Shown piece by piece: positions 11,138-28,169 of a DNA stretch of 64,000 nucleotides; position 1 is the first letter of the stretch; each line of letters opens with the position of its first letter. The notes beneath the pieces are model-generated. The model was not told the origin of the DNA. It did no database searches and worked only from the letters and a program-made list of their open reading frames with translations. The translations under genes were made by a program, and so were the position numbers. This DNA comes from Rhodococcus sp. G-MC3 (GTDB taxonomy: Bacteria; Actinomycetota; Actinomycetes; Mycobacteriales; Mycobacteriaceae), in assembly GCF_030063335.1 (NCBI RefSeq), contig NZ_JASISW010000007.1:124001-188000 (forward strand), given 5' to 3'.

Positions 11138-13699
11138 GTGAGTTCCCCCTACGACAACAACCCGGGTGGTAAGTCCGGAGATGGCGAACCCTCGAGGCGT
11201 CCGCCGAATGGCCCACCGGGCGGCCCGTACGGCCCGCCTCCCGGCCAGCCGCCGCTTCGTCGCGATGCGCAAGGACGTCCCATCCCACCGCCGATGCGCC
11301 GTGATGCACAGGGGCGTCCGATCCCACCGCAGATGCATCGTGATGCGCAGGGTCGGCCCATCCCCCCACCTGCAGGCCGTCCTCCCGTCGGTCGACCGCC
11401 GACAGGACAGCAGCCGAGCCGGCCTCCGATCGGCCCGCCCCCTGGTCGTCCCATCGCGGGCGGGCCACCGCGCACGCCCCCACCGATCGATCCACCGGAT
11501 GACGATTCCCCACGCTCTTCGGGCAGTGAGCCGCCCGAGCCGCCCGAGAGAGGTATCGCCGCGAAAACGAAGAAGAAGTCCAAGTGGCGTGTCGTTCGAC
11601 GAACGATGTACGCGCTGATCGCGCTCGGTTTGATCGTCCCGCTTCTGGCGTTCATGGTGGCGTACACCGTCGAGGACGTTCCGCGTCCCGGTGACATCAA
11701 GACCAACCAAGTTGCGACCATTCTTGCATCCGACAGCACGACCGAGCTCGGTAGAATTGTTCCGCCCGAGGGCAACCGCACTGACGTCTCGATCGACCAG
11801 ATTCCCCTGCACGTGCGCAACGCTGTGCTGTCGGCGGAGGACAGGGATTTCTACTCCAACCCCGGTTTCTCGGTCACCGGTTTCGGTCGCGCCCTTCGTG
11901 ACAACCTGCTCGGTCGCGACAGCGCGGGCGGTGGTTCGACCATCACTCAGCAGTACGTCAAGAATGCGCTCGTCGGTTCCGAGCGCTCGCTGACCCGAAA
12001 AATGCGGGAGCTCGTCATTTCTTCGAAGATGGCGCGCCAGTGGTCCAAGGACGACATCTTGGCCGCGTACCTCAACACCATCTACTTCGGCCGCGGTGCG
12101 TATGGCATCGCAGCAGCGTCGACGGCGTACTTCGGCAAGCCCGTCGAGCAGCTGTCCGTCGAGGAAGGCGCGGTCCTCGCGGCGGTCATCCAGCAGCCCT
12201 CGAATCTGGATCCGGAGTCCAATATCGAGGGCGCAACGTCCCGCTGGAACTACGTCCTCGACGGAATGGTGAGCCAGGGCAATCTCGATCAGGCTCAGCG
12301 TGCCGCGATGGTCTATCCGCAGTGGATACCGAGCGCTCAGGCCGAGAACAGCGATTCCGACAGCGGCCCCAACGGACTCATCAAAGCGCAGGTGTTGCGT
12401 GAGCTCTCTGCCGCCGGCGTGAGCGGGCAGGACCTCAATACCGAGGGATTGCAGATCACCACCACGATCGATCCGGCCGCGCAGGCCGCCGCGATCGATG
12501 CGGTGAACACCAACATGGAAGGTGAATCGCCGGATCTGCGTACGGCGTCGGTCTCGGTCGATCCCAAGACAGGTGCGATCAAGTCCTACTACGGCGGCGC
12601 CGACGGCGGTGGATTCGACTTCGCCCAGGCTGGTCTGCAGACGGGTTCGTCGTTCAAGGTCTTCGGTCTCGCTGCTGCTCTGGACCAAGGGATCCCGCTT
12701 TCGCAGATGTACGACAGCTCTTCGCTGACCGTCAACGGAATCCCCATCAGCAATGTCGAAGGTGAGTCCTGCGGAACCTGCACCATCGCTGAAGCGCTCA
12801 AGAGATCGCTGAACACCAGTTTCTACCGCATGGAACTGGCGATGGACAACGGCCCGGAAGCAATCGCCGCGATGGCGCACAAGCTTGGTATCGCCGCGGA
12901 ACTCCCCGGTATCGGACCCACATTGACAGAGGGTGCCGGAGTAGGCCCCAACAACGGAATTGTGCTCGGCCAGTACCAAAGCCGAGTGTTGGACATGGCA
13001 TCTGCCTACGCGACGCTCGCAGCGTCGGGTGTGTACCACGCACCGCACTTCGTACAGAAAGTCGTCACCGCCGACGGCACCGTTCTTCTCGATCGCGGAG
13101 CTGAACCGGGTGAGCAGGTCGTGTCCCCTGCAGTCGCCGACAACGTGTCCGCAGCAATGCGCCCGATCGCCGGCTACTCCAACGGCCACAACCTGGCCGG
13201 TGGCCGGCAATCTGCAGCCAAGACCGGAACCGCGCAGCTCGGCGACACCGGTGAGAACAAGGACGCCTGGATGGTCGGTTACACACCGTCGCTGGCGACG
13301 GCTGTCTGGGTCGGCACCGAGCAGGGACTCCCGCTGGAGAACAGCTACGGCGGCGCGATCTACGGTTCGGGAATCCCGTCCGACATCTGGAAGGCCACGA
13401 TGGACGGCGGTCTCGAAGGCACCCCCAACGAGACGTTCCCGACACCTGAACCGATCGCGGGACAGGCTGGTGTTCCTCAGTATTCGGCCCCGGCCGCACC
13501 GTCGACGCGGGCGACGGCTACGCAGGAGCAGCCGGCTGTCACGTTGCCGATCCCGACGGAGATTTCGCCTCCGGTGGTGATCACACCGCGGCAGGTGGAG
13601 ATCCTTCCTGGCGTAACGATTCCGCTTCCTGGACTTGCACCGGCACCGACGCCGGAATCGCCTGCGGTCCAGGAGCCGTCACCCGCTCCAGCCAGGTAA
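11138..13699 (+). CDS. ponA1: Bifunctional class A penicillin-binding protein PonA1
   Basis: 853 residues; polymerises glycan strands and cross-links peptides in the periplasm. A cytoplasmic Pro/Arg/Gly-rich tail of about 150 residues contains a 13-residue repeat (separate entry). One membrane anchor follows (TMYALIALGLIVPLLAFMVA). The GT51 transglycosylase has the catalytic Glu near residue 234 (SAEDRDFYSNPG). The transpeptidase domain has SxxK (SSFK, Ser504), SLN and KTGT motifs. A Pro/Thr/Ala-rich C-terminal tail ends the protein. The start is GTG after GGAG at 11125. In mycobacteria PonA1 is a polar-growth enzyme; position next to the DUF5318 gene matches Rv0049-Rv0050. Confidence 0.95.
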   Translation: MSSPYDNNPGGKSGDGEPSRRPPNGPPGGPYGPPPGQPPLRRDAQGRPIPPPMRRDAQGRPIPPQMHRDAQGRPIPPPAGRPPVGRPPTGQQPSRPPIGPPPGRPIAGGPPRTPPPIDPPDDDSPRSSGSEPPEPPERGIAAKTKKKSKWRVVRRTMYALIALGLIVPLLAFMVAYTVEDVPRPGDIKTNQVATILASDSTTELGRIVPPEGNRTDVSIDQIPLHVRNAVLSAEDRDFYSNPGFSVTGFGRALRDNLLGRDSAGGGSTITQQYVKNALVGSERSLTRKMRELVISSKMARQWSKDDILAAYLNTIYFGRGAYGIAAASTAYFGKPVEQLSVEEGAVLAAVIQQPSNLDPESNIEGATSRWNYVLDGMVSQGNLDQAQRAAMVYPQWIPSAQAENSDSDSGPNGLIKAQVLRELSAAGVSGQDLNTEGLQITTTIDPAAQAAAIDAVNTNMEGESPDLRTASVSVDPKTGAIKSYYGGADGGGFDFAQAGLQTGSSFKVFGLAAALDQGIPLSQMYDSSSLTVNGIPISNVEGESCGTCTIAEALKRSLNTSFYRMELAMDNGPEAIAAMAHKLGIAAELPGIGPTLTEGAGVGPNNGIVLGQYQSRVLDMASAYATLAASGVYHAPHFVQKVVTADGTVLLDRGAEPGEQVVSPAVADNVSAAMRPIAGYSNGHNLAGGRQSAAKTGTAQLGDTGENKDAWMVGYTPSLATAVWVGTEQGLPLENSYGGAIYGSGIPSDIWKATMDGGLEGTPNETFPTPEPIAGQAGVPQYSAPAAPSTRATATQEQPAVTLPIPTEISPPVVITPRQVEILPGVTIPLPGLAPAPTPESPAVQEPSPAPAR
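11258..11374 (+). repeat. Three in-frame 39-bp repeats in the PonA1 cytoplasmic tail
   Basis: Codons 41-79 encode three 13-residue units: RRDAQGRPIPPPM, RRDAQGRPIPPQM and HRDAQGRPIPPPA. The nucleotide copies differ at several third positions, so the peptide rather than only the DNA is conserved. The units may bind a cytoplasmic partner of the elongation machinery (inference). Confidence 0.85.
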
Positions 13700-13709
13700 C
13701 CTGACCGGT

Positions 13710-15272
13710 GTGAGCGAGAGCAAATCCGGCAGGCCGGGTACGCGCAGAGTCGCGAGTCCGGCACCGCTTGCGCCGGATCTCGCCTCGGACAGCACGCGTG
13801 ATCTTCCAGGAACATCGGATCCGACGACGGCTGAGTTCGCAGCCGTCGTCGGAGGTCCGGCAGGCAAGCATGCGCTGATCGGGCGGCAGCGTTTCATGAC
13901 CCCGATGCGTGTCCTGTTGCTGTTGGCGTTGGTGTTTCTCAGCCTCGGATGGTTCGCGAAAGCCGGGTGTATCCAGCAGGCGCCCAACGGTCCCGGCGGG
14001 GAGCTTGGACTCGACTGGAGCGGCAGCCGTCAGTACGTCGCTATGTGCTACTCGGACACTGTGCCGTTGTACGGCGCCGAGCGACTCGACGAGGGTGCGT
14101 TCCCCTACAAGAAGTCGTGGGAGGAAGCCTCTTCCGACGGAACCACTCAAATCCGGTACATGGAGTACCCGGTGCTGTCCGGCCTCTATCAGTACGGATC
14201 CGCGGTTGTCGCGAAGGCGTGGAATTCGGTTCCGTGGTTACCTCAGGCCTTGGCGGTAGTCGTCTACTTCAACGTCGTGGCCGTGGGTTTGGTGCTCGCG
14301 TGGTTGGTGACGGTGTGGGCCACCGCTCTCTCGGCCGGTCGCCGGATCTGGGATGCCGCCTTGGTTGCGGCGTCGCCACTGGTGATCGTCCACGGGTTCA
14401 CCAATTTCGACGCTCTTGCCACGGCGTGCGCTGCCGGTGGAATCCTGGCGTGGGGCCGCAAGCGGCCGGTGCTCGCGGGCATCCTGCTCGGGCTGGGCGG
14501 CGCGGTCAAACTTTATCCACTCCTGTTTCTCGGCCCACTCCTCGTATTGTGCTGGCGTGCAGGCAAGATGCGCGACTGGGGAATAGCAACGTGTGCGGCC
14601 GCAGCTGCATGGCTGGTGGTCAATCTCCCCATTGCGCTGCTGTACCCGAGCGGGTGGTACGAGTTTTTCAGGCTCAATTCCGCCCGCGGCGCCGATCCGG
14701 ACTCGATTTACAACGTGCTGTCCTCCTTCACCGGGTGGTCCGGATTCGACGGCGCGCTCTACCCCGGTGACAAGCCGCTGTTTCTCAATGCTGTGACGCT
14801 TCTGTTGTTCGCGTTGGTGTGCGTTGTCATTGCGTACATCGGTATGAATGCTCCGACGCGACCGAGGTTGGCGCAGTTGGCCTTTCTCGTTGTCGCCGGC
14901 TTCCTGCTGACCAACAAGGTGTGGAGCCCACAATATTCGCTGTGGCTCGTTCCCCTGGCCGTTCTTGCTCTGCCGCATCGCCGGATCTTGTTGGCGTGGA
15001 TGGTAATCGACGCATTCGTGTGGTTTCCGCGGATGTATTACTACCTCGGCGTCGCCAACAAGGGCATTCCCGAGCAGTGGTTCACGGCGGCAATCGTTCT
15101 GCGTGATATCGCGGTCATGGGACTCTGCGCCATGGTAGTCCGGCAGATCTACCGTCCGTCCGAGGATCTCGTGCGCCGTGGTGGCCTCGACGATCCCGTC
15201 GGGGGTGTGCTCGACCGTGCGCCCGATGCGCATCGAATCACCAAGACCGGACCCCGTCAGGCCCTTACGTAA
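13710..15272 (+). CDS. GT87-family polyprenol-phosphate mannosyltransferase-like membrane protein (Rv0051-like)
   Basis: 520 residues starting at a GTG 10 bp after ponA1. After a cytoplasmic region of about 60 residues there are about ten membrane segments. GT87/DUF2029 signatures are YMEYPVLSGLYQYG, GFTNFDALATACAAGG, GGAVKLYPLLFLGPLL and NKVWSPQYSLWLVPL. Members use polyprenyl-phosphomannose to add mannose to lipoglycans or glycoproteins on the outer face of the membrane. The precise substrate is not known. It corresponds to Rv0051 in the ponA1 operon. Its last 16 bp overlap the convergent tandem-TerD gene. Confidence 0.85.
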   Translation: MSESKSGRPGTRRVASPAPLAPDLASDSTRDLPGTSDPTTAEFAAVVGGPAGKHALIGRQRFMTPMRVLLLLALVFLSLGWFAKAGCIQQAPNGPGGELGLDWSGSRQYVAMCYSDTVPLYGAERLDEGAFPYKKSWEEASSDGTTQIRYMEYPVLSGLYQYGSAVVAKAWNSVPWLPQALAVVVYFNVVAVGLVLAWLVTVWATALSAGRRIWDAALVAASPLVIVHGFTNFDALATACAAGGILAWGRKRPVLAGILLGLGGAVKLYPLLFLGPLLVLCWRAGKMRDWGIATCAAAAAWLVVNLPIALLYPSGWYEFFRLNSARGADPDSIYNVLSSFTGWSGFDGALYPGDKPLFLNAVTLLLFALVCVVIAYIGMNAPTRPRLAQLAFLVVAGFLLTNKVWSPQYSLWLVPLAVLALPHRRILLAWMVIDAFVWFPRMYYYLGVANKGIPEQWFTAAIVLRDIAVMGLCAMVVRQIYRPSEDLVRRGGLDDPVGGVLDRAPDAHRITKTGPRQALT

Positions 15273-16504
15273 GGTCCAAGCTGCGGAACAGCTTCTCCCG
15301 CATGCTTTGCGTTGATACCTTCGCCGATGGCCTGCAGTTTCCAGTTGCCGCCGTCGCGGTACACCTTGGCCATGACCAGACCGGTGAAGGCCATTCCGCC
15401 CTGCAGTGTGAACCGTGCGAGTTCGACGTTGTTCGTGTCGTCGACGAGTCGGCAGAACGCATTGCCGACTTGCTCGAACGTCTGGCCGCGGTAGGACGTC
15501 ACAGTGAAGACGATGGCGGTCACGTGGGAAGGTACACGGGTCAGGTCGACGTTGACGACCTCGTCGTCACCTTCTCCTTCGCCCGTCAGGTTGTCACCCT
15601 GGTGCTGAATCGATCCGTCCTTGGCCTTGAGTTGGCCGTAGTAGACGACGTCGTTGACCTGGTTGCCGGCGAACATGATCGCGGAGGCGTCGAGGTCGAT
15701 GTTGCCGCCCTTTCCGCCCCCTCCGAAGAAGCTGGATTTCTTCGGAGCTGCAACCGGATCCCAGCCGAGTCCCATGCGGATCTTGGTCAGTGCGACTCCG
15801 CCGTCCTTGCGGAGCGTCACCTTCTGGCCCTTGGTGAGGCTGACCGGACGTGCCTTGGTCAGGCTGACCTCGGGTGGGCCCGTGGGTGCGGCGGTGGGCG
15901 CAGGAGTCGGTGCGGGGGGTGCTGGGGGCGCCGGGGGTGCAGCGGCTGGTGTGGGAGTCGGCGCCGACGCGGGCTGCGCTGCCGGGGCATCGTCGACGGA
16001 TACGCCGTGATCCGTCACCAGTGCGGCGAAGCCGCCTGCGTATCCCTGCCCTACGGCTCGCACCTTCCAAGATCCTGAACGCCGATAGATCTCGACCGCG
16101 ATGACGATCGACTCGGTGTTCAAGCCGTCGATCGTGTAGTGGAAGAGCGAATTGCCTTGTGTATCAGCGACGTAGGCGGTGGGAGGCGCGGAGCGACCGA
16201 AGCTGCTCGACGTGTCCTCCAGGGTGATGACTGCACGGATCTGTTCGATGTCCGCGGGCACCTGGGAAAGTGAGACCGCGAGCTGTGCAGGCTGGCCGGC
16301 CTGCCCCTGAACCAATCGGACGCCGGGTCCGCTCGGTTGGTTGAAGAACACGAAATCCGCATCGGAGCGCACTTTGCCGTCGGCGCCGACCATCAGCGCG
16401 GACAGATCCGCCGGGGCGGAAATCTGTATGGAGACGACCACGTCGGTGGCGGTGATCGGACCGTTCTGGCCTTTCGCCAAGGTGCGGCCGGCGGGAGTAG
16501 ACAT
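15257..16504 (-). CDS. Tandem TerD-domain protein
   Basis: 415 residues. An N-terminal TerD-like domain (about residues 10-165) is joined by an Ala/Pro-rich linker (about 175-215) to a complete TerD domain. Only the second domain keeps the calcium-site signatures (NIDLDASAIMF and [13 protein letters not shown]). The first has ADFVFFNQPSGPG and no acidic cluster, so it is probably not metal-binding. TerD proteins are cytoplasmic or peripheral calcium-binding stress proteins. ATG at 16504 follows GAAGGA. A start 15 codons upstream is possible but adds no domain. It is the last gene of the minus-strand Ter array. Confidence 0.9.
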   Translation of the reverse strand: MSTPAGRTLAKGQNGPITATDVVVSIQISAPADLSALMVGADGKVRSDADFVFFNQPSGPGVRLVQGQAGQPAQLAVSLSQVPADIEQIRAVITLEDTSSSFGRSAPPTAYVADTQGNSLFHYTIDGLNTESIVIAVEIYRRSGSWKVRAVGQGYAGGFAALVTDHGVSVDDAPAAQPASAPTPTPAAAPPAPPAPPAPTPAPTAAPTGPPEVSLTKARPVSLTKGQKVTLRKDGGVALTKIRMGLGWDPVAAPKKSSFFGGGGKGGNIDLDASAIMFAGNQVNDVVYYGQLKAKDGSIQHQGDNLTGEGEGDDEVVNVDLTRVPSHVTAIVFTVTSYRGQTFEQVGNAFCRLVDDTNNVELARFTLQGGMAFTGLVMAKVYRDGGNWKLQAIGEGINAKHAGEAVPQLGPYVRA

Positions 16505-16588
16505 GTGTGTCCTTCGTGTAGAAAGCGGATCGTCTCTGCCGCTCACCAATGTACTGGGTCTATTTGTCCGTTTGTGGTCACGGCGGTG

Positions 16589-17344
16589 TCAACGGGCGGG
16601 ATGGTTCGCGTTCTTCTCGTTCGCGAGCTTCCTTATCTCGTCGCCCAGATCCAACAACGACGCGGCCGTCACAGTGATCATCGAGGAATGTCGGATCATG
16701 TACCGGCCGTCACCTGGCACATCGGCCCACTGCACTCCGGTTGGATCGTTGTCTGGTCTGCTGTCCGCCGCAGGTCCAGCGCAGACATGAATTTCACCCG
16801 CGCTGGATCTGGGGTGCGAGAACAGTGTCTCCAATTGCTTGTCCGCGGAGTTCTGGGAGACGCTCTGGAACAATGAAGTGCCGCCCTCGGATGGGCGTAC
16901 GTCGATTCGCGCCGACCTTCCCGGTTCCGCCGGGGGCAGTACGTCCAGGATCATGCGCACAGCGCGGTGACTCTCGACGAGGTGGACGGCTACCGGCCCT
17001 CCCGAGGAATCGTCGACTCCTGGTTGCTGCACCAGAACCGTGGCCACCTCGTGTCGTATCGCCGCGTGTGCTCGAAGCTTCGTGGGTGCTGAACCTACAG
17101 TCCTGGTGTGACCGATGAGTTCGATGCGCAGTTGCGGATCCCGGATGATGTTCGTTGCGACCCGTAAGTCGTCATCGAACTGTGCCAGCATGGAATCGGC
17201 TGCGTCTTGACGCTGTCGATGGTAATCGGCTGCCGAGTCGGCGGTCACTTGGAATTGAAGTGGAAACGGGAGACGGTCGCGTCCGACGTGTTCCATCAGC
17301 ATGCGGAATTCCAATCCGCCGACGGTCCAACTGCATTCGTTCAC
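16589..17344 (-). CDS. EspG-family type VII secretion chaperone-like protein
   Basis: 251 residues with the EspG fold signature at the start (SWTVGGLEFRMLMEHVGRDR, then PFPLQF), an Arg/Asp-rich mid-section and a helical C-terminus (LLDLGDEIRKLANEKN). EspG proteins bind the helical tip of PPE-type substrates in the cytosol and hand them to the ESX membrane complex. The GTG start overlaps the stop of the PPE-like substrate gene (GTGA), the classic substrate-chaperone arrangement. No ESX core genes (eccB-E, mycP) lie in the window. Confidence 0.75.
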   Translation of the reverse strand: MNECSWTVGGLEFRMLMEHVGRDRLPFPLQFQVTADSAADYHRQRQDAADSMLAQFDDDLRVATNIIRDPQLRIELIGHTRTVGSAPTKLRAHAAIRHEVATVLVQQPGVDDSSGGPVAVHLVESHRAVRMILDVLPPAEPGRSARIDVRPSEGGTSLFQSVSQNSADKQLETLFSHPRSSAGEIHVCAGPAADSRPDNDPTGVQWADVPGDGRYMIRHSSMITVTAASLLDLGDEIRKLANEKNANHPAR

Positions 17345-18834
17345 TCGCCGAGTACCGGTGGGGCGACGAGAGGAAGCGTGCCGATCAGTTCGTCTCCGTT
17401 GATCGCATCGATGAGGTATCCGGGTGTTTTGTGGACGTCGTCTCCGCCGCCTGCACCTCCACCGCCACGGCCTCCGGGGGGTGCCATGCCGCCCATGCCT
17501 CCCGTGCCTGGGGTCCCGGGACGTCCTGCGCCCGCGCCGTATCCGCTGCCACCGGGAATGCTGCTGCCGGGACTAGCGCCGCCGGGAATGCCGCTGCCGG
17601 GAATGTTGCTGCCGGGACTACCGCTGCCTCCGCCGAATCTGGATCCGCCCGGTGCTCCGGTGGAGCCGCGTGAACGATTCCCAGCGGGCCCGCCGAACAG
17701 TGATCCGCCGCCAGGTGTTCCAGCTCCAGGTGCTCCAGCTCCAGTCGACCCTGCGGTAGGCGATCCGCCCGCCGAGGCGCCACTCGTCGCGGGACCTCCT
17801 GACCCCGATGCACCCTGCCCTGATGCACCCTGCCCTGATGCGCCCTGCCCTGATCGACCCTGCCCCGGTGGCGCGCCGTCGGACGGCGCCCAAGTGGACG
17901 CCTGGGTTGCAGTGTCCTGAGGCGTCGAGCCGGGCGGCAGGGTCGATTCAAGCAGGGTGGACTGGGGCTGGCCGCCTGTAGGACCGGGGCCCGACGCACC
18001 TCCCGATCCGCCCCCTGCCGAGCCGGAGGACGGCTGGTACCACGGTCCGTAGGAACCGGGGTTGGACTGGGTAGCAGGCGATACGAATCCTTCGGAACCG
18101 GTCAGGGGATTCAACGCCTGAGGTAGCACCGGTATCTGCGCCGCAGCGTCTCGAATGGCGGGCGAGTAATAAGTCTTCATGACGGTTCGAGCTTGTTCCT
18201 GCGCCTCTTCGCGTTCGTATTCCCTGCTCTTCATGGAACCGAACACGCGGATCGGACTGCTCAACACATCGACCGTCGAGTCCCAGAAGGTGTCGGAGCC
18301 GGGGGGCGGAACATTGGCTTTGGCCTGGCTGACACCGTCGTGCGTCGTCTGTACCTTGTTGGCCAACGCATCGGACGCGAACATCAGCCAGAGTGAGGAA
18401 TTGGCGTACCGCAGTACTCCGTCGCCTGCTGCCGTTGCGGCTGAGCCTTGCCAGTGCGCACTGACCTTCGCGTTCAAATCGGCCGCGAAATCTGCTGCGT
18501 CCGTTGCCGCCCCGAAGCCGAGACTCCGCCAGGCAGTCGAGGTGCCGTCGATCGACTCCGGGTCGATGTCTCCTACCTTTGCCCAGATTTCCTCGTGGGA
18601 CATGGCATCGAAGGGGTCGTCGACGATGGACGTCGAATCCTCTTCCTGGGCGTACCCGCTCCTGCTCTTGACTCCGGACTCGTACCTGCCCTGTGCGCCG
18701 GGAACGCCGTCCCCCGCTGTCGATCCGGATTGCACGTTGTTCAGCGAACCCGCGACTTCTCGCACTGTCTGCTGGATGTTTCCGATTGGGATCAGCTCAG
18801 GATTCACGGCCGCCCCCGGTTCTGCGAGACTCAT
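17341..18834 (-). CDS. PPE/WXG100-like type VII secretion substrate with Gly/Pro-rich body
   Basis: 497 residues. The N-terminal 210 residues are helical. They include a turn HWQGSAATAA (W-x-G motif, about residue 128) and, downstream, YEREE, which fits the YxxxD/E export signal. The rest is Gly/Ser/Pro/Ala-rich, partly made of 5-residue GQGAS repeats. The last 30 residues form a non-repetitive block (TPGYLIDAINGDELIGTLPL) that looks like a conserved interaction segment. No PPE tripeptide is present, so assignment to the PPE family proper is uncertain; the adjacent EspG-like gene supports export by an ESX system. It sits in the middle of the Ter array, 39 bp upstream of nothing but the HAD gene end. 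Confidence 0.7.
   Translation of the reverse strand: MSLAEPGAAVNPELIPIGNIQQTVREVAGSLNNVQSGSTAGDGVPGAQGRYESGVKSRSGYAQEEDSTSIVDDPFDAMSHEEIWAKVGDIDPESIDGTSTAWRSLGFGAATDAADFAADLNAKVSAHWQGSAATAAGDGVLRYANSSLWLMFASDALANKVQTTHDGVSQAKANVPPPGSDTFWDSTVDVLSSPIRVFGSMKSREYEREEAQEQARTVMKTYYSPAIRDAAAQIPVLPQALNPLTGSEGFVSPATQSNPGSYGPWYQPSSGSAGGGSGGASGPGPTGGQPQSTLLESTLPPGSTPQDTATQASTWAPSDGAPPGQGRSGQGASGQGASGQGASGSGGPATSGASAGGSPTAGSTGAGAPGAGTPGGGSLFGGPAGNRSRGSTGAPGGSRFGGGSGSPGSNIPGSGIPGGASPGSSIPGGSGYGAGAGRPGTPGTGGMGGMAPPGGRGGGGAGGGDDVHKTPGYLIDAINGDELIGTLPLVAPPVLGE
17805..17864 (-). repeat. Four 15-bp tandem repeats encoding GQGAS-type units
   Basis: Units at 17805, 17820, 17835 and 17850 follow the pattern CTGATGCACCCTGCC with one to three changes. 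They code for the SGQGASGQGAS stretch of the secreted substrate. The array is likely length-variable by slippage. Confidence 0.8.
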
Positions 18835-18873
18835 GGAGAGAACCGATGCTCATACTTCTACCCCCTGCATAGA

Positions 18874-19749
18874 TCAACCTCTGTGCGGACCAACCCCTTG
18901 ATCTGTTGGACGCACCGAGGGCCCAATCGGTTCCATCGAACGCCCAACTCGTTCGTGGAGCCAGGTCAAGATCTCCTCCCCGGCGAGGGCGCCGGACGCC
19001 TGGGTGACGGTGAGGCCCGGATGCTGGAAGTTCAGTGCTTCCAATTCACCGTGCGCGGGTCTGATGGCGTTGTTTGCGGCGATCAGCATGTCGGCGTCCA
19101 GGGCGCCGTCGCCGGCCGCGAACGTCACGGCTGCGGTGGACAGTCGACCGTCGTTGATGCAGCGCGAGAGGACTTCGGCGACGGCTCGGCTCTTGCATAC
19201 CGCGTCGGGCATCGTGTAAATCTTGCGTCCCTGCTGCGAGACGTTCCAGCCCTGTGTGGCGCACCACTGCGACCATTCGGTCAGGAACCCGTCCGGTACC
19301 TCGGCTGGTTCGACGACCAGGTAGCAGAACAGGTCGTCCGCGGTGCGTCGTTTGAGCACCCAGTCGCCGTCGGCGCGTGAATGCAGTTCGGCGCGAATCT
19401 GGGCGAGTTCGATGTCGGCGAACTTCTCGCGCCACGACCGATCCGGCTCACCGTCGACGAGGATGTTGCCGCCGTTGCTGGTGATCGCATAGCGCCATGG
19501 CGCTCCAGGGAGCGCGATGCGCTGAAACTGCTCGATGGTGCGTGTCGTCGTCGGCACGACGACGGCGGTCTTCGTCAGCTCCTCCAGCGAACCGGCTGCG
19601 ACATGTGTCATGTACGACAGCGGACCGCCCTCGTAAGTCTCGACGCACATCACCGAGTCGCCGATGTCGAACCCGAGAGCCAAGTCGGAGTAGATCATGG
19701 TGCGATCGAGGTCGACGGATACCAGGGCGTTCTTCATCTCACGTGACAT
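18874..19749 (-). CDS. HAD-superfamily phosphatase of the Ter biosynthetic module
   Basis: 291 residues. HAD motif I is VDLDRTMIYS near residue 12, motif II TSNGG near residue 90 and the late acidic motif FAAGDGALDADML near 217. The long cap with two Trp-rich segments is typical of sucrose-phosphate-phosphatase-like HADs. In described Ter systems a HAD enzyme accompanies PRTases and a citrate-lyase-like protein and is predicted to dephosphorylate a nucleoside-like intermediate. The ATG at 19749 overlaps the PRTase stop by 11 bp; the Met four codons later (19737) is equally plausible. Downstream lies the PPE-like gene. Confidence 0.8.
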   Translation of the reverse strand: MSREMKNALVSVDLDRTMIYSDLALGFDIGDSVMCVETYEGGPLSYMTHVAAGSLEELTKTAVVVPTTTRTIEQFQRIALPGAPWRYAITSNGGNILVDGEPDRSWREKFADIELAQIRAELHSRADGDWVLKRRTADDLFCYLVVEPAEVPDGFLTEWSQWCATQGWNVSQQGRKIYTMPDAVCKSRAVAEVLSRCINDGRLSTAAVTFAAGDGALDADMLIAANNAIRPAHGELEALNFQHPGLTVTQASGALAGEEILTWLHERVGRSMEPIGPSVRPTDQGVGPHRG

Positions 19750-22093
19750 CTTTTATCAATCCCATGCAGGAGTACGCAAGGTCGGGTACCTCGGTCACGG
19801 GGACTCCGCGTGCCTCGGCGAGCATCCGAATGTGCCGATGCTCGGGGGCGCCGGAGTCGCGCACCAGAATTCGCCATGGAACGCGGCGGAGCAGCACCCG
19901 GGTTGTTTCGCCGACGCCTGGCTTGACGAAATTGACGTGCGAGATACCGAACTGCTCGCGAACCTTCTCGACCGACGCCCAGCCGCTCCAGTCCGGAGTT
20001 CGATCCGACTTGCCGATTCTCGTCGCCGAGCCCGTGGCTTCCTCGCGTGCGTCGGCGAACCGCGCGGACACGGTGTCGAGCAGATGATTCGACACGTCGT
20101 CGGCGGCGAGTTCGGAATAGTACTTGGCGCCGTGGAAATCACCGTCGCGAATAAGGTCGGTGTTGAGGACGGTACGTGAAACCAAGCCGGAGACAGTCGA
20201 ATTGAGGCACGCCGACGCGATGAGGAAATCGTCGCGGGTCCCGTAGGTGCGAGCACAGTTGCCCGGATCGGCCAGCACCGCGAGATCGTCGTTGAACAGG
20301 CCACTGCTGAACTCGCCACTGCTGAACTCACCACTGCTGAACTCGGCCAGCGCGGCCGAGAGTTCGCGGGCGATGGCGCCCTTTCCGGTCCAGCCGTCCA
20401 CGAAGACGACCGATCGTGAATCATGATTGTCAGCAAGATATCTCAGCGCAACAGCATCGATTCCGCGATCACGGACGATGGATACCGCGTAGTGCGGAAG
20501 GTCGAGTCCATGCATTTCGAGGGCCCACCGCCGCATCAGAATGCCGACGGGAGTTCCGGCGCGGGCGAGCGAGGCGAGGACGATGTCGTGTCCACGCTCG
20601 GCCAACACCAGCTCGGTCACGGTGCCGACAGCGACTGCGAGTCGGCGCGAGCTCTCCTGCAGGACAGTTTCGAACAGGTCCTGGTATGCGGCGTCGGGTT
20701 GGTACTCCACCGGCAGCGATTCGGCGTAGTGAGCCGTACCAGCCTGAATCTGCTTCTCGCGCTCGGTGATATCGGCTTCCAATGCCACGGCGGACAGGTC
20801 CTTCAGTAGCCACGTCACCTCCTGCGGAGCGTAGGAGCCGAACTCGGGACCTGTCAGTGGTACGGCGCGTCGAGCCACCGTGAGTGCTAGCGGGTCCGCT
20901 CCGCTCACGACGACAACCGCCACGTCGCTACCGGAGGCGGCGATGACCTGAGCGGCGCCGCCGGGCCCGAACAGTCGACCGGTGTCGGCCGGGCCGTCGA
21001 CGACCAGCACGACGAGGGCGCCCGCGGTCCCGGCAGCGTTGTAGACGTATCGAAATTCTTCCTCGTTCGCCTCCGGTGCAAGGAATCGAAACCCTCGCCG
21101 CAGTGGATAGTCGGGCTCGTCCAGCACGTATGCCGGCGAGCGAGTGGTGGTTTGATAGAGCGCCGTATGACCGAGCTCGTCCAGGGTCGCAGCGATCTGC
21201 AGCGGTAGGTGCATCAGCTCCTCGTGCCCGAGGACGACGACGGGACGTGCAGGTTCGATCGCCGCGTCCACAGCCGTCGCGATGCCGGCGGCAGCAGCGA
21301 AGAATGCAGGTGCATCCGAGGCGAGGAAACCGTGTCGTCCGCCGTCGGGCACCGCAGCGGGCCAGGAGACGTCGACACGAGTCACCGTGCCCGGTGCCCT
21401 GGCCACCGGGTTGTACTTGGGTTCGGGAAGTGCGGCGACGGCCTCGACCAGATCCGCCGGCAGTTCGACAGTTCCCTGCGCGAGGCTGACGCTGTCGATG
21501 ATCACTCCGAGTTCCGTTGCAACCGAGTCGCCGTGTTCGAGATGAACGGGCGACCGCATGTCCACAAGGGACGCGATGACGTAGTGGGTTCGCGGCGAGA
21601 CGGCGTGCATCGACCGAATTGCCTCCAGCGCAGTCTTTCCGGTGGAGATCTCGTCGTCCACCAACACGAGAGGCAGTGTCGTGGACAGTATGTGCGGCGA
21701 GGTAGGCAACAGCTGGTGATCGGTCGCGTGCGAGTGCCCTTCCTGGAACTCTGCGTACACCTCCGTGCCGGGGACATTCCGTCGCGTCGAGTGCAGATAG
21801 CAGTGCGCTCCGAGGTGCGCTGCGACCCCGTGTCCCAATCCGGTTGCAGTTTCGGCAAATCCGAGCACATCGACGTCGGACCCTCCGACGGCGGCGAGCA
21901 CCAGATCGGCGAGCGCATCCGCTCCGGCTCTCACGAGGGCAGGCGCGACAGGAATGTGCTTGCCGAGAACCTCGGAGACGAGGAGATGCGCGCGGCGCGG
22001 ATTTCGGCGAAGACCGGGCCGGACCAGGGCGGTCACCGACCAGTCGGAGGACGATCCGGTGGGGGTGATGACGATTCCCGAGGTGGGGCCCAT
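19739..22093 (-). CDS. Four-domain fusion PRTase - TRSP - PRTase (StiP-type) - PELOTA
   Basis: 784 residues. Domain 1 (about 20-230) is a phosphoribosyltransferase with the PRPP loop LVLVDDEISTGKTA at 142-154. Domain 2 (about 265-430) matches the TRSP region that accompanies it, with GRHGFLASDAPAFF and GHEELMHLP. Domain 3 (about 460-680) is a second PRTase of the type often named cysteine protease StiP, with FVDGWTGKGAIARE near residue 565. Domain 4 (about 690-784) is a PELOTA-like RNA-binding module (ILVRDSGAPEHRHIRMLAEA). In Ter systems these are predicted to make and attach a ribosyl or nucleoside-like product. The ATG shares one base with the upstream stop (TGATG). Confidence 0.8.
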   Translation of the reverse strand: MGPTSGIVITPTGSSSDWSVTALVRPGLRRNPRRAHLLVSEVLGKHIPVAPALVRAGADALADLVLAAVGGSDVDVLGFAETATGLGHGVAAHLGAHCYLHSTRRNVPGTEVYAEFQEGHSHATDHQLLPTSPHILSTTLPLVLVDDEISTGKTALEAIRSMHAVSPRTHYVIASLVDMRSPVHLEHGDSVATELGVIIDSVSLAQGTVELPADLVEAVAALPEPKYNPVARAPGTVTRVDVSWPAAVPDGGRHGFLASDAPAFFAAAAGIATAVDAAIEPARPVVVLGHEELMHLPLQIAATLDELGHTALYQTTTRSPAYVLDEPDYPLRRGFRFLAPEANEEEFRYVYNAAGTAGALVVLVVDGPADTGRLFGPGGAAQVIAASGSDVAVVVVSGADPLALTVARRAVPLTGPEFGSYAPQEVTWLLKDLSAVALEADITEREKQIQAGTAHYAESLPVEYQPDAAYQDLFETVLQESSRRLAVAVGTVTELVLAERGHDIVLASLARAGTPVGILMRRWALEMHGLDLPHYAVSIVRDRGIDAVALRYLADNHDSRSVVFVDGWTGKGAIARELSAALAEFSSGEFSSGEFSSGLFNDDLAVLADPGNCARTYGTRDDFLIASACLNSTVSGLVSRTVLNTDLIRDGDFHGAKYYSELAADDVSNHLLDTVSARFADAREEATGSATRIGKSDRTPDWSGWASVEKVREQFGISHVNFVKPGVGETTRVLLRRVPWRILVRDSGAPEHRHIRMLAEARGVPVTEVPDLAYSCMGLIKDVT
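20301..20345 (-). repeat. Three 15-bp tandem repeats inside the PRTase fusion
   Basis: CCACTGCTGAACTCG, CCACTGCTGAACTCA and CCACTGCTGAACTCG follow without gaps and code for EFSSG units in a non-conserved loop after the second PRPP motif. Near identity of the copies suggests recent expansion by slippage. Confidence 0.85.
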
Positions 22094-23250
22094 CAACGGT
22101 CCGCCAATTCGGTGAGTAGGTCGACGAACGTGATGCCCTCGTTGGTCACGCCGAATGCGTCGGCGCGCAGCATTGTTTGCTTCGCCCAATTTCGGTGGGG
22201 ACCGAGCTCGTTCATCTTGTTCTTGTAACCCGATGCTCGGACGCCTCCTTCGTCGGACTCGAGAATGTCGAGAGCGTCGTAGTACTCCTCGTGCGTGACG
22301 GCCGACATTGCGTGCACTGCGGGCACATGTGATGGATGGATGACGGTCTTCCCCTGAATTCCGTTGGCGCGGTCCAACGCAACCTCGCGCAGCAGCGCGT
22401 CGAGGTCGTGGCTTACGAGTTGTTGCCGGAAGCGGACTGCTTCCTGTTCGACGAAGGGAGTCTGCCGGAGCATGGGCCTGAACATGCGCTCGTGGTCGGC
22501 GAAGTACTCCCACACCGGTCCGGTGATGACGAATCCGGAATCGTTGCTGCGCCCCAGATGGTTGACGATCGCGCTGATGACGTCCGCGACGACGCGGACG
22601 TCGTAGATGGTCAGGTCGCGGTCGCGGCGGATGCCGAACATTCCGCACATGTCCGTGGCGCCGATTCGCACTGCCAACACTCGGTCGCGATGCTGTCCGA
22701 GGAGTTCTCGCACTGCCACCAGTTCGGTGTCGCGAGTCTCGCGGAACACTACTTCGGCGGACTCCAGTATCGGCATCGCCAGCAACCGCTTGCCGTGCGA
22801 GTCAGAAGCGTCGATGATTTCGTCGAGGAACGCAGCTCCGCGTTTCGCGGTGAACTTCGGGATCACGAACCCGGCGAGCGCAGTCGCACCATGTGTCAGC
22901 GAGGAACAGATGCGCCGGATCTGCTCGGGCGTGCGGGCGCGGACGAACACCAGCGATCCGAGTGGTTCCTCCGCGGCCAGCTGCTCGAGCGAAGCCACCG
23001 CGTTGGTGATGGCGTGCTCGAGATTGTGGTCGGCAACTGCGTCTTCCAGATCGATGACGAGTGAGCAGACACCTTCGCGGCTGCGCTTGGCCAGGGTCTG
23101 CGCGAGATCTGCCCGGGTGGCGGGCATGTAGAGAGTTGCACCGAGAGCCGCGGCGACCGTGGCCAGGTCATCGGAGGGCTCGATGCGTCTCGGTGGGCGG
23201 AGGAAGAGCCGCGCCAGCACTGCCGAGTCCAGATGTGAGAAGTGTTGCAC
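22093..23250 (-). CDS. HpcH/HpaI citrate-lyase-like C-C bond lyase of the Ter module
   Basis: 385 residues, TIM-barrel enzyme. Signatures are LYMPATRADLA, VCSLVIDLEDAVAD, FVRARTPEQIRRI, GFVIPKFTAKRG, LAVRIGATDMCGMFG and NGIQGKTVIHPSHV. The Glu/Asp pair in DLEDAV and the Asp in GATD are the expected metal ligands. Related enzymes cleave or form C-C bonds of citrate-like acids. In Ter clusters this protein is a constant partner of the PRTase and HAD genes. GTG start at 23250; the stop shares one base with the PRTase start. Confidence 0.8.
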   Translation of the reverse strand: MQHFSHLDSAVLARLFLRPPRRIEPSDDLATVAAALGATLYMPATRADLAQTLAKRSREGVCSLVIDLEDAVADHNLEHAITNAVASLEQLAAEEPLGSLVFVRARTPEQIRRICSSLTHGATALAGFVIPKFTAKRGAAFLDEIIDASDSHGKRLLAMPILESAEVVFRETRDTELVAVRELLGQHRDRVLAVRIGATDMCGMFGIRRDRDLTIYDVRVVADVISAIVNHLGRSNDSGFVITGPVWEYFADHERMFRPMLRQTPFVEQEAVRFRQQLVSHDLDALLREVALDRANGIQGKTVIHPSHVPAVHAMSAVTHEEYYDALDILESDEGGVRASGYKNKMNELGPHRNWAKQTMLRADAFGVTNEGITFVDLLTELADR

Positions 23251-23261
23251 CGCAGTCCTTA

Positions 23262-23310
23262 GCAGTTGTCATTGGTGAAGCAGCCGTCATGGTGAAGCAG
23301 TTGTCATAGT
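23262..23310. repeat. Three imperfect 17-18-bp direct repeats upstream of the HpcH-like gene
   Basis: GCAGTTGTCATTGGTGAA, GCAGCCGTCATGGTGAA and GCAGTTGTCATAGT follow head to tail at 23262, 23280 and 23297. They fill most of the 79-bp gap between the coiled-coil gene and the HpcH-like gene. They may be a duplicated operator or simply slippage products. Confidence 0.6.
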
Positions 23311-23329
23311 CGAGCAAGTACTTGTGTGG

Positions 23330-24529
23330 TCACCGAGCTGATCCGCGCATTCGATCGATTACGCCGTTGATGAAGCCGGAGATGCTCTCGAGATCCTGCA
23401 GGTACGACCAGTAGTCGGGATGCGTTCCGGTCAGTGCAGCGTTGGCGCGGTCGATTCGAGCCAGCTGAGCATCCAACACCGTCCCCCATTCGGCAACAAG
23501 TCCACGATTCAACGCGAGTTGTTGGGCATCTCGTAACTTGAATCTCACCGTGTGTTCAGTTTTGGTTGGGTCTGCCTTCACAGCGCGGAGCTTCTCGACA
23601 CGGTCGGTGACAGCGTCGACCAGCTTCTCGGCGTCGGCCAGATGTGCGCGCGCTCGAGCGATGTCCTCCAGCGCTTCCTCCGGGTTTCCCGATCCCGAGG
23701 ATGCCCGCGCAGCCGAGAGATCCTCGGCAGCTTGTTCGATGTGCCGAGCGCTCGCTCGTTCGTTGTGTGAGAGGTCAGCGGAGCTGGCTGCGTTGAACTC
23801 TCTCAGCAGCGTCGAGAAGGCAGGGGCAAGGCGGTCGAAGCGGGTGCGGACCGCCTCCACTCGGGTTCGGACCGACGCCAATGCCGACGCCGCTTCCTGG
23901 GCCCGACGTGGGGCTGCGGCAAGCGACTGGTCGAGAGTTGCGGCCGCCTCCCGCACGTGAGCGGCAGCTGCCCTTGCATCCAACGGGTTTCGTGCCGCCA
24001 GTGCCGAATCGAGGGACGCCACCGCGTCGTCGACTGCGCGGAACGCCGAGCGAACCGACGGGTAGTCGACGAACTTCGGATCAGCGGAGGCAACCGCGAG
24101 CTGGGCCTTCTCGGCGAGGCTCTTCGCATCCTGGGCGAGTCTCGGCGTCGCCGCCAGTGCCGAGCGAGCGTGCTCCAGCTCGTCGCGATGCGCACTGTAG
24201 AACCGGTCGACCTCCTTGGCCGCCTCGCCGAGGGCGTGTGCAGCGTTCTGAAAGGCCGCCTGAGCCTGGGTCGTGACGATTCCGTCGAACTGCTCGACGG
24301 CGGCAAGGTAAGCGGCACCCGCGTCGAAGCAGGCCTTCTCTGCTGCCGACCACTGTCTGCGCAGATCTTGCTCCGGAGTCAGTGCACGCACCGCGTCGAC
24401 ACCGGTGGATGCGATCGACTGGCGCTTGTCCATGTCGAGAAATGCTGCGACGGCACTGTCCTGCGCTGTGTGTGCAGCGGCATCCGATCCCGCGTCGCGG
24501 CGGAACAGCCCAGGTCGACGACTTGTCAC
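23330..24529 (-). CDS. Long coiled-coil protein heading the Ter array
   Basis: About 399 residues from the GTG at 24529 (MTSRRPGLFRRDAG). Almost the whole length is Ala/Glu/Arg-rich amphipathic helix with heptad character (AEKAQLAVASADP, LDSALAARNPLDARAA, EAASALASVRTRVEAVRTRF), ending in an aromatic-rich cap (HPDYWSYLQDLESISGF). No enzymatic motif is seen. It is the first gene of the minus-strand array and may scaffold the other Ter proteins; that is inferred from position. The start is uncertain: the frame is open to 24652, and the region upstream of 24529 does not look conserved. Confidence 0.65.
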   Translation of the reverse strand: MTSRRPGLFRRDAGSDAAAHTAQDSAVAAFLDMDKRQSIASTGVDAVRALTPEQDLRRQWSAAEKACFDAGAAYLAAVEQFDGIVTTQAQAAFQNAAHALGEAAKEVDRFYSAHRDELEHARSALAATPRLAQDAKSLAEKAQLAVASADPKFVDYPSVRSAFRAVDDAVASLDSALAARNPLDARAAAAHVREAAATLDQSLAAAPRRAQEAASALASVRTRVEAVRTRFDRLAPAFSTLLREFNAASSADLSHNERASARHIEQAAEDLSAARASSGSGNPEEALEDIARARAHLADAEKLVDAVTDRVEKLRAVKADPTKTEHTVRFKLRDAQQLALNRGLVAEWGTVLDAQLARIDRANAALTGTHPDYWSYLQDLESISGFINGVIDRMRGSAR

Positions 24530-24591
24530 CTGCCCGATAGTACTGACGGGAACTTCTCGGTGTGGTGTGCGCGTTGGCCGAAGTAGAACCC

Positions 24592-24610
24592 GTACGAATC
24601 TGTACGAATC
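24592..24610. promoter_or_regulatory. Direct repeat GTACGAATC x2 in the divergent Ter promoter region
   Basis: GTACGAATC occurs at 24592-24600 and 24602-24610, spaced one helical turn apart, between the coiled-coil gene and terD. Such a spacing fits a dimeric regulator serving both divergent units. No known regulator is assigned. Confidence 0.35.
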
Positions 24611-24667
24611 GGACAGGAGACCACTACGGTTGACGGCTGTAGGGGAATCCACTGCGAAAGGAAAGTC

Positions 24668-25243
24668 ATGGGCGTCAGCCTCAGCAAGGGCGGCAATGTC
24701 TCACTCACCAAGGCAGCTCCGAATCTGACTGCTGTCACGGTCGGACTCGGATGGGACATTCGTTCGACGACCGGCACGGACTTCGACCTCGACGCGAGCG
24801 CTATCGCGCTGGGCGCCGACAAGAAGGCATTGAGTGACGGGCACTTCGTTTTCTTCAACAACCTCAAGTCTCCGGACGGATCCATCGAGCACACCGGTGA
24901 CAACACCACCGGCGAGGGCGAAGGCGACGACGAGCAGATCAAGGTCGACCTGGCAGCTGTTCCGCCGAATGTCGAGACCGTCACCTTTCCCGTCTCGATC
25001 TACGACGCCGACGCGCGTTCGCAATCCTTCGGTCAGGTCCGCAACGCGTTCATCCGCGTCATCAATCAGGCCGATCAGACCGAACTCGCTCGCTACGACC
25101 TCAGCGAGGACGCGTCGACCGAGACCGCGATGGTCTTCGGCGAGCTGTACCGCAACGGGGCCGAGTGGAAGTTCCGCGCCGTCGGCCAGGGCTACGCATC
25201 GGGACTCTCCGGAATTGCGCGCGACTTTGGGGTAAACGTCTAG
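24668..25243 (+). CDS. terD: TerD family calcium-binding stress protein
   Basis: 191 residues, the standard single-domain length. The family N-terminus [15 protein letters not shown], the first calcium-site segment [11 protein letters not shown] (about 38-48), FVFFNN, the second acidic segment [13 protein letters not shown] (about 77-89) and the terminal [12 protein letters not shown] are all intact. TerD proteins confer resistance to tellurite, phage and oxidative stress in various bacteria; their mechanism is unresolved. The ATG follows GAAAGGAAAG. It is transcribed away from the minus-strand Ter genes and ends in a terminator before the DUF475 gene. Confidence 0.95.
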
Positions 25244-25269
25244 TAAAGGCATACCCAAGATTGGGCCTA

Positions 25270-25301
25270 ACCCCGCTTCATCACCCATGATGGAGCGGGG
25301 T
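25270..25301 (+). terminator. Hairpin terminator after terD
   Basis: A 13-bp stem (ACCCCGCTTCATC with GATGGAGCGGGGT, one G-T pair) and a 6-nt loop, followed by TGTTCT. It ends 26 bp after the terD stop and may be partly read through into the DUF475 gene. Confidence 0.75.
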
Positions 25302-25378
25302 GTTCTGGCTTTCAGACCTGCCCGTTTCGTCCCGCTTCGTTAACAGACTTGCGCCGGCTACAGAAAGGCCACACGCTC

Positions 25379-26476
25379 GTGGTTTTACGCATCTTCGGTT
25401 GGTCCATCGGAGTCACGATCGTCTCGATGATCGTGGCTTTCCTCTATGGAGGCTGGCAGGCACTGTTCCTGGTGCTCATCCTCGGCATCCTCGAGGTGTC
25501 ACTGTCCTTCGACAACGCTGTCATCAACGCTACGGTGCTGCGCCGGATGAGCGAGTTCTGGCAGAAGATCTTCCTGACGATCGGCATCATCATCGCCGTC
25601 TTCGGTATGCGTCTTCTGTTCCCGCTGGTGATCGTCTGGGCTGCGTCGGGCAAGGGACCCGTCGCCGCGATCGATCTTGCGCTCAATCCGCCGGCGAACG
25701 ACGCCGCCTACTTCGACAACGGTGACCCGAGTTACGAGACACTGCTGACCGACGCGCATCCGCAGATCGCGGCATTCGGCGGCATGTTCCTCCTGATGCT
25801 GTTCCTCGGGTTCATCTTCGAGGACCGCGAGATCACATGGCTCAGCTGGCTCGAGAAGCCGTTGGCCAAGATCGGCAAGCTGGACCAGCTCGCTGTGGTC
25901 GTTGCAGGCCTTCTGCTCGTGCTCAGCGCCGAGTTCCTCGCCGAAGACGACAAGATCTCCACCGTCATGGTTGCCGGCGTTCTCGGCATGATCACGTACA
26001 TCGCCGTCAACGGGCTCGGACAGCTGTTTCACATCGAGGAAGAAGGCGAAGAGTCCTCGGGCGGGCCGAGTGAACTCGCCAAAGCAACAGGCAAAGCAGG
26101 CTTCTTCCTGTTCCTCTACCTCGAGGTGCTCGACGCATCGTTCTCGTTCGACGGTGTCATCGGTGCATTCGCGATCACGGCAGACCCGATCATCATCGCC
26201 CTCGGCCTCGGATTCATCGGCGCGATGTTCGTCCGTTCGATCACCGTGTTCCTCGTACGCAAGGGAACGTTGAGCGACTACGTCTACCTCGAGCACGGCG
26301 CTCACTGGGCGATCGGCGCGCTGTCGGTGATCCTGCTGGTGTCCATCGGTGTGCACATCAACGAGATCGTCACCGGACTCGTCGGGGTGTTCTTCATCGG
26401 AGCAGCCTTCATCAGCTCGGTGATGCGTAACCGCAAGCTCGAAGCCAAGGGCGAAGACACCCACCTGCATACCTGA
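25379..26476 (+). CDS. DUF475 / TerC-like integral membrane protein
   Basis: 365 residues from the GTG at 25379; the GTG follows AAAGG by about 11 bases. Around nine membrane segments. Two acidic intramembrane signatures of the TerC superfamily are present: LEVSLSFDNAVINA near residue 40 and LEVLDASFSFDGVIGAFA near 255. A cytoplasmic acidic loop (HIEEEGEESSGG) separates the halves. TerC relatives export or insert metal ions such as manganese or help membrane protein metalation. A TerC-type membrane partner is expected in Ter systems. It converges with the LuxR genes 3 bp away. Confidence 0.85.
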   Translation: MVLRIFGWSIGVTIVSMIVAFLYGGWQALFLVLILGILEVSLSFDNAVINATVLRRMSEFWQKIFLTIGIIIAVFGMRLLFPLVIVWAASGKGPVAAIDLALNPPANDAAYFDNGDPSYETLLTDAHPQIAAFGGMFLLMLFLGFIFEDREITWLSWLEKPLAKIGKLDQLAVVVAGLLLVLSAEFLAEDDKISTVMVAGVLGMITYIAVNGLGQLFHIEEEGEESSGGPSELAKATGKAGFFLFLYLEVLDASFSFDGVIGAFAITADPIIIALGLGFIGAMFVRSITVFLVRKGTLSDYVYLEHGAHWAIGALSVILLVSIGVHINEIVTGLVGVFFIGAAFISSVMRNRKLEAKGEDTHLHT

Positions 26477-26479
26477 GCA

Positions 26480-26764
26480 CTACCACTCGTCGAGACCGGT
26501 GAGGCCGTCCTGTAGCGCGCGAGCGAACAGGGCGGCCTTCGTCGATGCAGGCCTGCCGAGCGCGGCGTACTTCTGACGAATCCTCGTCAAGTGGGTGTTG
26601 ATGGTGCCCACCGATATGTGAACGGAACGAGCGGCGACAGTCTTCGAATCCGAGGCGAACCACGCCAACATGACTTCTACTTCTCGCGCACTCAAAGGCG
26701 GTGTGCGGTGCAACGTCTTCTCACATCCGATCGGTGAGAGCCGACGCGTGTCCAGCTTCGGCAA
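26480..26764 (-). CDS. Short LuxR-type DNA-binding protein without receiver (possibly truncated)
   Basis: 94 residues with a LuxR/FixJ helix-turn-helix: LSAREVEVMLAWFASDSKT, then GTINTHLTRIRQKYAALGRP and TKAALFARALQDG. There is no N-terminal receiver. The only start outside the HTH is TTG at 26764, immediately after an in-frame TAG, and no good ribosome binding site precedes it. It may therefore be a 5'-truncated copy. It is closely related to the next two genes, sharing the Lys-Tyr-Ala and GRPA-TK signature. Confidence 0.6.
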   Translation of the reverse strand: MPKLDTRRLSPIGCEKTLHRTPPLSAREVEVMLAWFASDSKTVAARSVHISVGTINTHLTRIRQKYAALGRPASTKAALFARALQDGLTGLDEW

Positions 26765-26829
26765 CTACCGCCGGATCGCATGCACGGTAAGCCTGTGGTT
26801 TTCCGGCCAGTTGTGTTGAGCAACAACGG

Positions 26830-27207: not shown

Positions 27208-27378
27208 GAGAGTTCTCCCCATTCTCGAAGTTGCGGCAGAGCACAACTTCTTCTCGCACTGATTTTCACAGGAAACGTGCAGCTTGTCTGCCCTGAAAGT
27301 TAGGGGCATTGAACCGACAACCAAAGTGGTATCCACATCACGGCGGAACCTGCACCGATCAACGCGTGGGGAAGCGAC

Positions 27379-28077: not shown

Positions 28078-28169
28078 TGCCCGCCCCTTGATCCTGCAGA
28101 GCAACTCAGGTTGCTCGATCAATATTCGAACGGGAGAGTCGGTTCGTTACCGACGGTGCCATCGGCGTC

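Follow-up and report, generated by a model that had tools for sequence, protein, structure and literature searches.

A biosynthetic module associated with Ter systems was reportedly described by Anantharaman, Iyer and Aravind in 2012, and its product is said to have been predicted to be nucleoside-like. We know of no settled account of how Ter systems protect the cell. Two type VII secretion arrangements are also close to the case described here. One is the PE-PPE-EspG set of mycobacterial ESX loci. The other is EspB, which is found with EspK in ESX-1 and whose export was reported to be independent of EspG (PMC9811218). We analyzed a stretch of 64,000 nucleotides from Rhodococcus sp. G-MC3 (contig NZ_JASISW010000007.1, positions 124,001 to 188,000), which is called the window below. 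It contains a Ter cluster with a gene pair for a PPE-like protein and an EspG-family chaperone lodged between the HAD and tandem TerD genes. Our best reading, with a probability of roughly 0.45, is that this is a sigma-E/sigma-H-linked Ter envelope-stress locus of the mycolata, which would have an EspG-chaperoned exported arm.

Gene types were assigned by Pfam and NCBIfam scans of nine open reading frames (ORFs). A first-pass annotation of the same DNA had proposed a Ter cluster with a phosphoribosyltransferase (PRTase)/StiP/lyase/HAD set, and the matches bore this out, the HAD gene being assigned by weak ones. It had counted ten genes; we found nine, and no tenth in 15257-26476. Its gene types held by Pfam for the fusion protein, the lyase, TerD, tandem TerD, DUF475/TerC and EspG; the HAD gene was matched only weakly and the PPE-like gene stayed below the cut-off. 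It had also regarded the presence of a type VII secretion pair among genes on one strand as the most unusual part, and the EspG match with the adjoining PPE-like gene, between HAD and tandem TerD, agrees with that. Similar to the described Ter-associated module, the locus has PRTase_2-TRSP, StiP-PELOTA and C-C bond lyase domains over the Pfam cut-offs, and a weakly matched HAD gene beside TerD (twice) and DUF475/TerC. The differences are that it has no ATP-grasp gene, which our survey indicated to be accessory and normally absent in the family, that the PPE-like/EspG pair lies within the operon, and that a helical EzrA-like protein stands where some other loci carry a TelA-like gene.

The pair was surveyed in 37 congeneric genomes, with an E-value of 1e-37 or better defining a strong EspG match. 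PRTase/StiP was present in all 37, EspG in 34 and strong EspG in 30. In 29 of these 30, the strong EspG was on the same contig as the PRTase gene and within about 5 kb of it; in G210 the two were on separate contigs. The array is conserved well beyond this strain, with EspG beside the fusion gene in 29/37 genomes, which goes against one of the conditions that would have refuted the first-pass annotation. Seven genomes had no Ter-linked pair: G005, G056 and G073 gave no EspG match, and G089, G116, G207 and G222 gave a weak one elsewhere. In all seven, the PRTase and StiP halves appeared as two matches. For the 30 genomes with strong EspG, PRTase/StiP was one clean match in 26, had one flagged stop in three, and was in two pieces in G208, the sole congeneric genome with a linked pair but separately matched halves. 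Counted by locus, EspG occurred in 25 of 31 congeneric loci and, beside the fusion gene, in none of 88 loci of other genera; these counts are not independent (L034 and L048 are one contig; some loci, for example L038/L123 and L040/L124, look like the same genomes), some of the loci from other genera are short, and the off-target L138 was left out. L112, L114-L116 and L118 were without EspG, and L032 stops short of this position.

HAD is directly followed by tandem TerD in many relatives, without the pair, and we therefore regard the pair as an insertion. Distances were compared over 25 loci (Mantel p 0.001, 999 permutations). For EspG and the PPE-like N-domain, the correlation was r 0.89-0.97 with the PRT, lyase, coiled-coil and HAD distances (0.96 for EspG against PRT, tblastn segments) and r 0.65-0.81 with the DUF475 and TerD distances. 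Mean distances were 0.50 for EspG and 0.59 for the PPE-like N-domain, compared with 0.18-0.27 for the four core proteins; they were 0.09 for DUF475 and 0.04 for TerD. The pair appears to diverge two to three times faster than the core, which fits one old insertion followed by vertical descent. EspG relatives (E 1e-6) were present in at least 99 of 201 family genomes, this genus included, and outside the genus none was beside StiP among the matches listed. At 15 EspG loci of other genera, the EspG cluster was present in at least 11 and the PPE-like cluster in at least 10; the neighbourhoods varied and the tail was often shared. The pair looks like a widespread orphan cassette lodged in a Ter operon in this genus.

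This distribution brings in the main rival of the favoured reading, hitch-hiking. An orphan PPE-like/EspG cassette, common in mycolata, may have settled in a harmless spot of an expressed operon, its function unrelated to Ter. The varied places of related pairs in other genera, the weaker EspG genes elsewhere in the four genomes named above, and the many relatives with HAD and tandem TerD adjacent all agree with this. However, the place was kept in 29 of the 37 genomes although the pair itself changes so much faster than the core. We regard hitch-hiking as a real possibility to be taken seriously. Among the listed matches in the open-licence PMC literature, no paper joining Ter and ESX was found by title; EspG together with TerD returned only an E. 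coli O157:H7 paper, which we took to concern the unrelated E. coli EspG.

The PPE-like protein of the window scored 19.1 bits against Pfam PPE (cut-off 26), and the one at L160 scored 21.0; the counterpart at L036 was over the cut-off with 28.2 bits. An AlphaFold 2 (AF2) model of the protein matched PPE41 best and EspB next in fold comparisons made with VIA-align 2 only. The model could be aligned to EspB from residue 16 to residue 240, indicating extra N-terminal helices, and its C-terminal part is Gly-rich. The C-terminal tail was found in 22 of 25 distinct sequences with a strict pattern, and WxG was strongly conserved. A YxxxD/E motif, the candidate export signal, was present in all five PPE-like proteins inspected, at differing places. 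A comparison of the EspG alignment with PDB sequences yielded, up to E 1, matches to antibody chains, which we judged to be noise.

Similar to the PE-PPE-EspG sets of mycobacterial ESX loci, the pair combines an EspG-family protein (90 bits), WxG, a model match to the PPE fold and a 4-nt gene overlap. A difference is that there is no separate PE gene: 39 nt separate HAD from the PPE-like gene, which itself overlaps espG. In addition, the locus is not an ESX locus, and the one EccB of the genome sits in an ESX-4-like locus. EspB of ESX-1 shares the aligned region and the Gly-rich C-terminal part, but here the partner is of the EspG family and not EspK, and the locus is Ter and not ESX-1. The protein could be an EspB-like single-chain PE-PPE protein, chaperoned by EspG and exported by ESX-4, that serves as the surface arm of a sigma-E/H Ter response, perhaps as a mycomembrane channel passing metal or the Ter product; we consider this specific form rather unlikely. 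The fast divergence of the pair might also indicate a surface or antagonism factor directed at phages, rivals or a host, using the stress operon for timing only. Yet Pfam and PADLOC found no toxin-like domain, the tail and WxG are strongly conserved, and fast change can also mean weak constraint. We consider an antagonism factor improbable.

EccB and EccE each gave a single match in the genome, and the two are together on contig C47. The EccB stretch also holds an FtsK/SpoIIIE ATPase of 1339 aa, a pair of ORFs of WXG100 size, and ORFs resembling MycP and EccD. It is near ribosomal protein genes, and several of these gene names are presumed from the sequence. The C47 locus looks like ESX-4. A single EccB was found in 35 of the 37 congeneric genomes, the ESX-4-like setting being read in one of them. 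A second, more divergent EccB was seen in two genomes (G219:C37:10542-11981 and G220:C74:5422-6894), perhaps from a plasmid ESX. Contig C4 carries a second PPE-EspG pair (L157:15639-17747), over the Pfam cut-offs with 79 and 153 bits and far from any ESX gene found; its neighbours are presumably seryl-tRNA synthetase and prephenate dehydratase genes. As far as found, the genome has two PPE-EspG pairs, with ESX-4 as their only possible exporter. ESX-4 is described in a review as the only type VII secretion system of non-mycobacterial Actinomycetota, some ESX-4 systems being without EspG (PMC11217815). A published model has espG, eccE, pe and ppe gained on a plasmid ESX copied after the Corynebacterium/Rhodococcus divergence (PMC4791881).

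Two observations weigh against export of these pairs by ESX-4. The eccB gene (L170:13100-14620; G000:C47:65139-66545) has an in-frame stop in this assembly, and the matches of the other 36 genomes show none; this is either a sequencing error or a broken gene. In addition, loss of EccC4 in M. tuberculosis was reported to leave PPE36 and PPE62 unmoved (PMC10117145).

Promoter motifs suggest a link between the locus and stress sigma factors. The sample was the window and 23 of 36 congeneric loci, plus 14 loci of other genera. GGGAAC-N17/18-CGTT was upstream of terD in 24/24 congeneric loci (19 distinct sequences), compared with 0.01 expected from base shuffles, and in none of the 14 loci of other genera. 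Within the 64-kb window, only one GGGAAC-N16/19-CGTT was present. The motif fits the corynebacterial sigma-H/sigma-E consensus GGAAC-N17/18-cGTT, which is stated to equal that of mycobacterial sigma-E (PMC10012870). Genome-wide, 31 sites were found, compared with 14 for the reversed control. Seven of 30 inspected sites precede dnaK, sigB, clgR (identified below its NCBIfam cut-off), htpX, ftsH, rbpA and a gene resembling Bax inhibitor, at distances of 20-176 nt; about a dozen of the 30 are within reading frames that run on through the site, and these are probably chance. Similar to the C. glutamicum sigma-H/sigma-E regulon, dnaK, sigB and clgR are preceded by the motif here and are in the table of that paper (PMC10012870). 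A difference is that the strings 'terc' and 'tellur' do not occur in its main text. A sigma-70 promoter scan gave no site.

Before the coiled-coil gene, TA[CG]NAT-N6/7-GTG was found in 32 of 38 loci, compared with a shuffle mean of 0.21. This conservation agrees with the start at 24529 that the first-pass annotation had chosen, and it supports a leaderless transcript for the coiled-coil operon. Taken together, the motifs suggest two divergent units rather than one.

On the favoured reading, the two units would share one control region, terD-DUF475 having a sigma-E/sigma-H-type promoter and the coiled-coil operon a leaderless-type start. The operon would be transcribed as one unit with the coiled coil, lyase, PRTase/StiP fusion, HAD and tandem TerD genes. 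The orphan PPE-like/EspG pair would have been inserted once, between HAD and tandem TerD, in the Rhodococcus fascians-like genus, and inherited with the operon since. Envelope or oxidative stress would raise terD-DUF475. DUF475, which is over the TerC cut-off, may move metal across the membrane like TerC proteins; those of B. subtilis were reported to metalate exported proteins (PMC12096827). The TerD proteins and the helical protein could form a membrane-associated scaffold, and the enzymes may make or process a small phosphoribosyl product. EspG would keep the PPE-like protein soluble and pass it to ESX-4, the only ESX machine of the genome, and in this way the response would also alter the cell surface.

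Table 1. Features of the Ter cluster and its control region, in window coordinates.
Feature	Position	Strand	Evidence
Tandem TerD protein, two TerD domains	15257..16501	-	Pfam TerD, two stretches, 277.7 bits
EspG-family type VII secretion chaperone	16589..17344	-	Pfam ESX-1_EspG, E 2.5e-25, 90 bits (cut-off 27)
PPE-like protein with a helical, WxG-bearing N-domain, a middle rich in Gly/Ser/Pro and a conserved C-terminal tail	17341..18834	-	Pfam PPE, below cut-off
HAD-like phosphatase	18874..19749	-	Weak NCBIfam and PDB matches
PRTase_2-TRSP-StiP-PELOTA_1 four-domain protein, 810 aa	19739..22171	-	Pfam, 4/4 domains over cut-off
HpcH/CitE-like C-C bond lyase	22093..23250	-	Pfam C-C_Bond_Lyase, E 5e-121
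All-helical coiled-coil protein, GTG start at 24529	23330..24529	-	AF2, predicted local distance difference test (pLDDT) 93.3
TACTAT, predicted -10 element, leaderless start of coiled-coil operon	24537..24542	-	Motif conservation
GGGAAC-N18-CGTT, predicted sigma-E/sigma-H promoter of terD-DUF475	24548..24575	+	Motif conservation
TerD	24668..25243	+	Pfam TerD, 282.2 bits
DUF475/TerC-family membrane protein	25349..26476	+	Pfam DUF475 441.5 bits and TerC 54.2 bits, both over cut-off

The minus-strand unit consists of seven genes, from 24529 down to 15257, and terD and DUF475 are divergent from them (Table 1). From the coiled coil to tandem TerD, the coordinates give spacings of 79, -79, -11, 39, -4 and 87 nt. 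No minus-strand terminator-like site was found inside 15257-24529; the scan gave nine sites, compared with 5.8 expected from shuffles. The HAD gene had no Pfam match at E 0.1. It matched NCBIfam HAD-SF-IIB-MPGP below the cut-off (E 4e-6) and, in the PDB, the trehalose phosphatase 6cj0 (E 3.2e-7), and a gene at the same position is kept in relatives. PADLOC called no system; its output was limited to two weak matches of single genes, to JetC and to a PRTase model. In 18 congeneric loci (L033:15605-16204), a 199-aa membrane-like protein with no Pfam match separates EspG from tandem TerD; the window is without it.

The Ter core here is ordinary, and its four-domain fusion is a common form. Of 201 family genomes, 100 have StiP (PF11202). 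Loci of Rhodococcus, Nocardia, Streptomyces, Arthrobacter and Paenibacillus share the order lyase, PRTase/StiP, HAD. Of 125 loci, 91 have the PRTase-TRSP and StiP-PELOTA halves in a single open frame, a share that is biased as the named loci were found using the fused protein; the halves were frame-split in 25, in the same frame with a stop in seven and partial in two. Among usable family-drawn loci (L112-L151), the fused form was found in 17/39. The closest named relatives of the fusion protein were Rhodococcus and Rhodococcoides fascians records, which suggests that the window belongs to this group. Two side observations were made on Ter loci. In L034/L048 (NZ_NPFY01000011.1; G215:C1:536885 and 558349) the whole cluster occurs twice, inverted, about 21 kb apart and with equal scores, which is a true duplication or an assembly fault. 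A family that we take to be AIM24-like, in two or three tandem copies, lies near Ter genes (40 members in 18 loci, including L046, L047, L126, L130, L132 and L136).

The first-pass annotation had taken the lack of an ATP-grasp gene to mark the locus as a variant Ter module. The absence itself was confirmed: this genome (5.6 Mb, 102 contigs) had no ATPgrasp_Ter match over the cut-off, and its single match below it was a 1115-aa frame that by its size was taken as carbamoyl-phosphate synthase. However, ATPgrasp_Ter (E<=1e-7) was found in only 16 of the 201 family genomes and in 0/15 of this genus, and StiP was not found within 45 kb of any of the 16 matches; the smallest separation, about 50 kb, was in G094. 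An ATP-grasp homologue was present in 15 of 120 Ter loci, all 15 of them Paenibacillus, Brevibacillus or Bacillus (Bacillota) records. We rejected the label 'variant' because the absence of ATP-grasp is the norm in the family, and a variant module in this sense is very improbable, unless a divergent ATP-grasp that escaped these searches acts from another place.

The AF2 model of the coiled-coil protein matched EzrA best in the VIA-align 2 fold comparison. Its Pfam EzrA match (E 3e-4) was below the cut-off. We also considered a divergent TelA, because a coiled-coil match was present in just 2 of the 20 loci that have a TelA-like gene. A profile comparison with TelA-like proteins was negative (hhalign probability 0.1), and we rejected the idea.

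On one flank of the array are a presumptive PBP gene and a GT87 glycosyltransferase gene, the Rv0051 of the first-pass annotation; on the other are a second glycosyltransferase-like gene and presumptive rpsF and ssb genes. The Rv number is likewise presumptive. The two membrane glycosyltransferase genes, at 13635-15272 (+) and 28170-29594 (-), are related, forming one blastp cluster; the first is GT87 by Pfam. Three consecutive LuxR-type regulator genes adjoin DUF475 (26480-28122, -); a further, receiver-like domain was found in the largest alone, just under the Pfam cut-off. Amid DUF475-adjacent regulator genes, four loci (L035:1373-5221, also L033, L034 and L048) carry a protein of 1257-1282 aa, by eye with HTH, ATPase and WD repeats.

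The conserved, probably exported protein in the operon and the sigma-E/H-type promoter point to the cell envelope in Ter function, and suggest that export is part of the stress response. The pair is also of interest for the cargo of ESX-4, as EspG and PPE-like genes are present where 35/37 congeneric genomes have a single EccB. If the specific EspB-like form considered above were true, ESX-4 too would have substrates that depend on EspG, and an exported component would be added to the Ter system.

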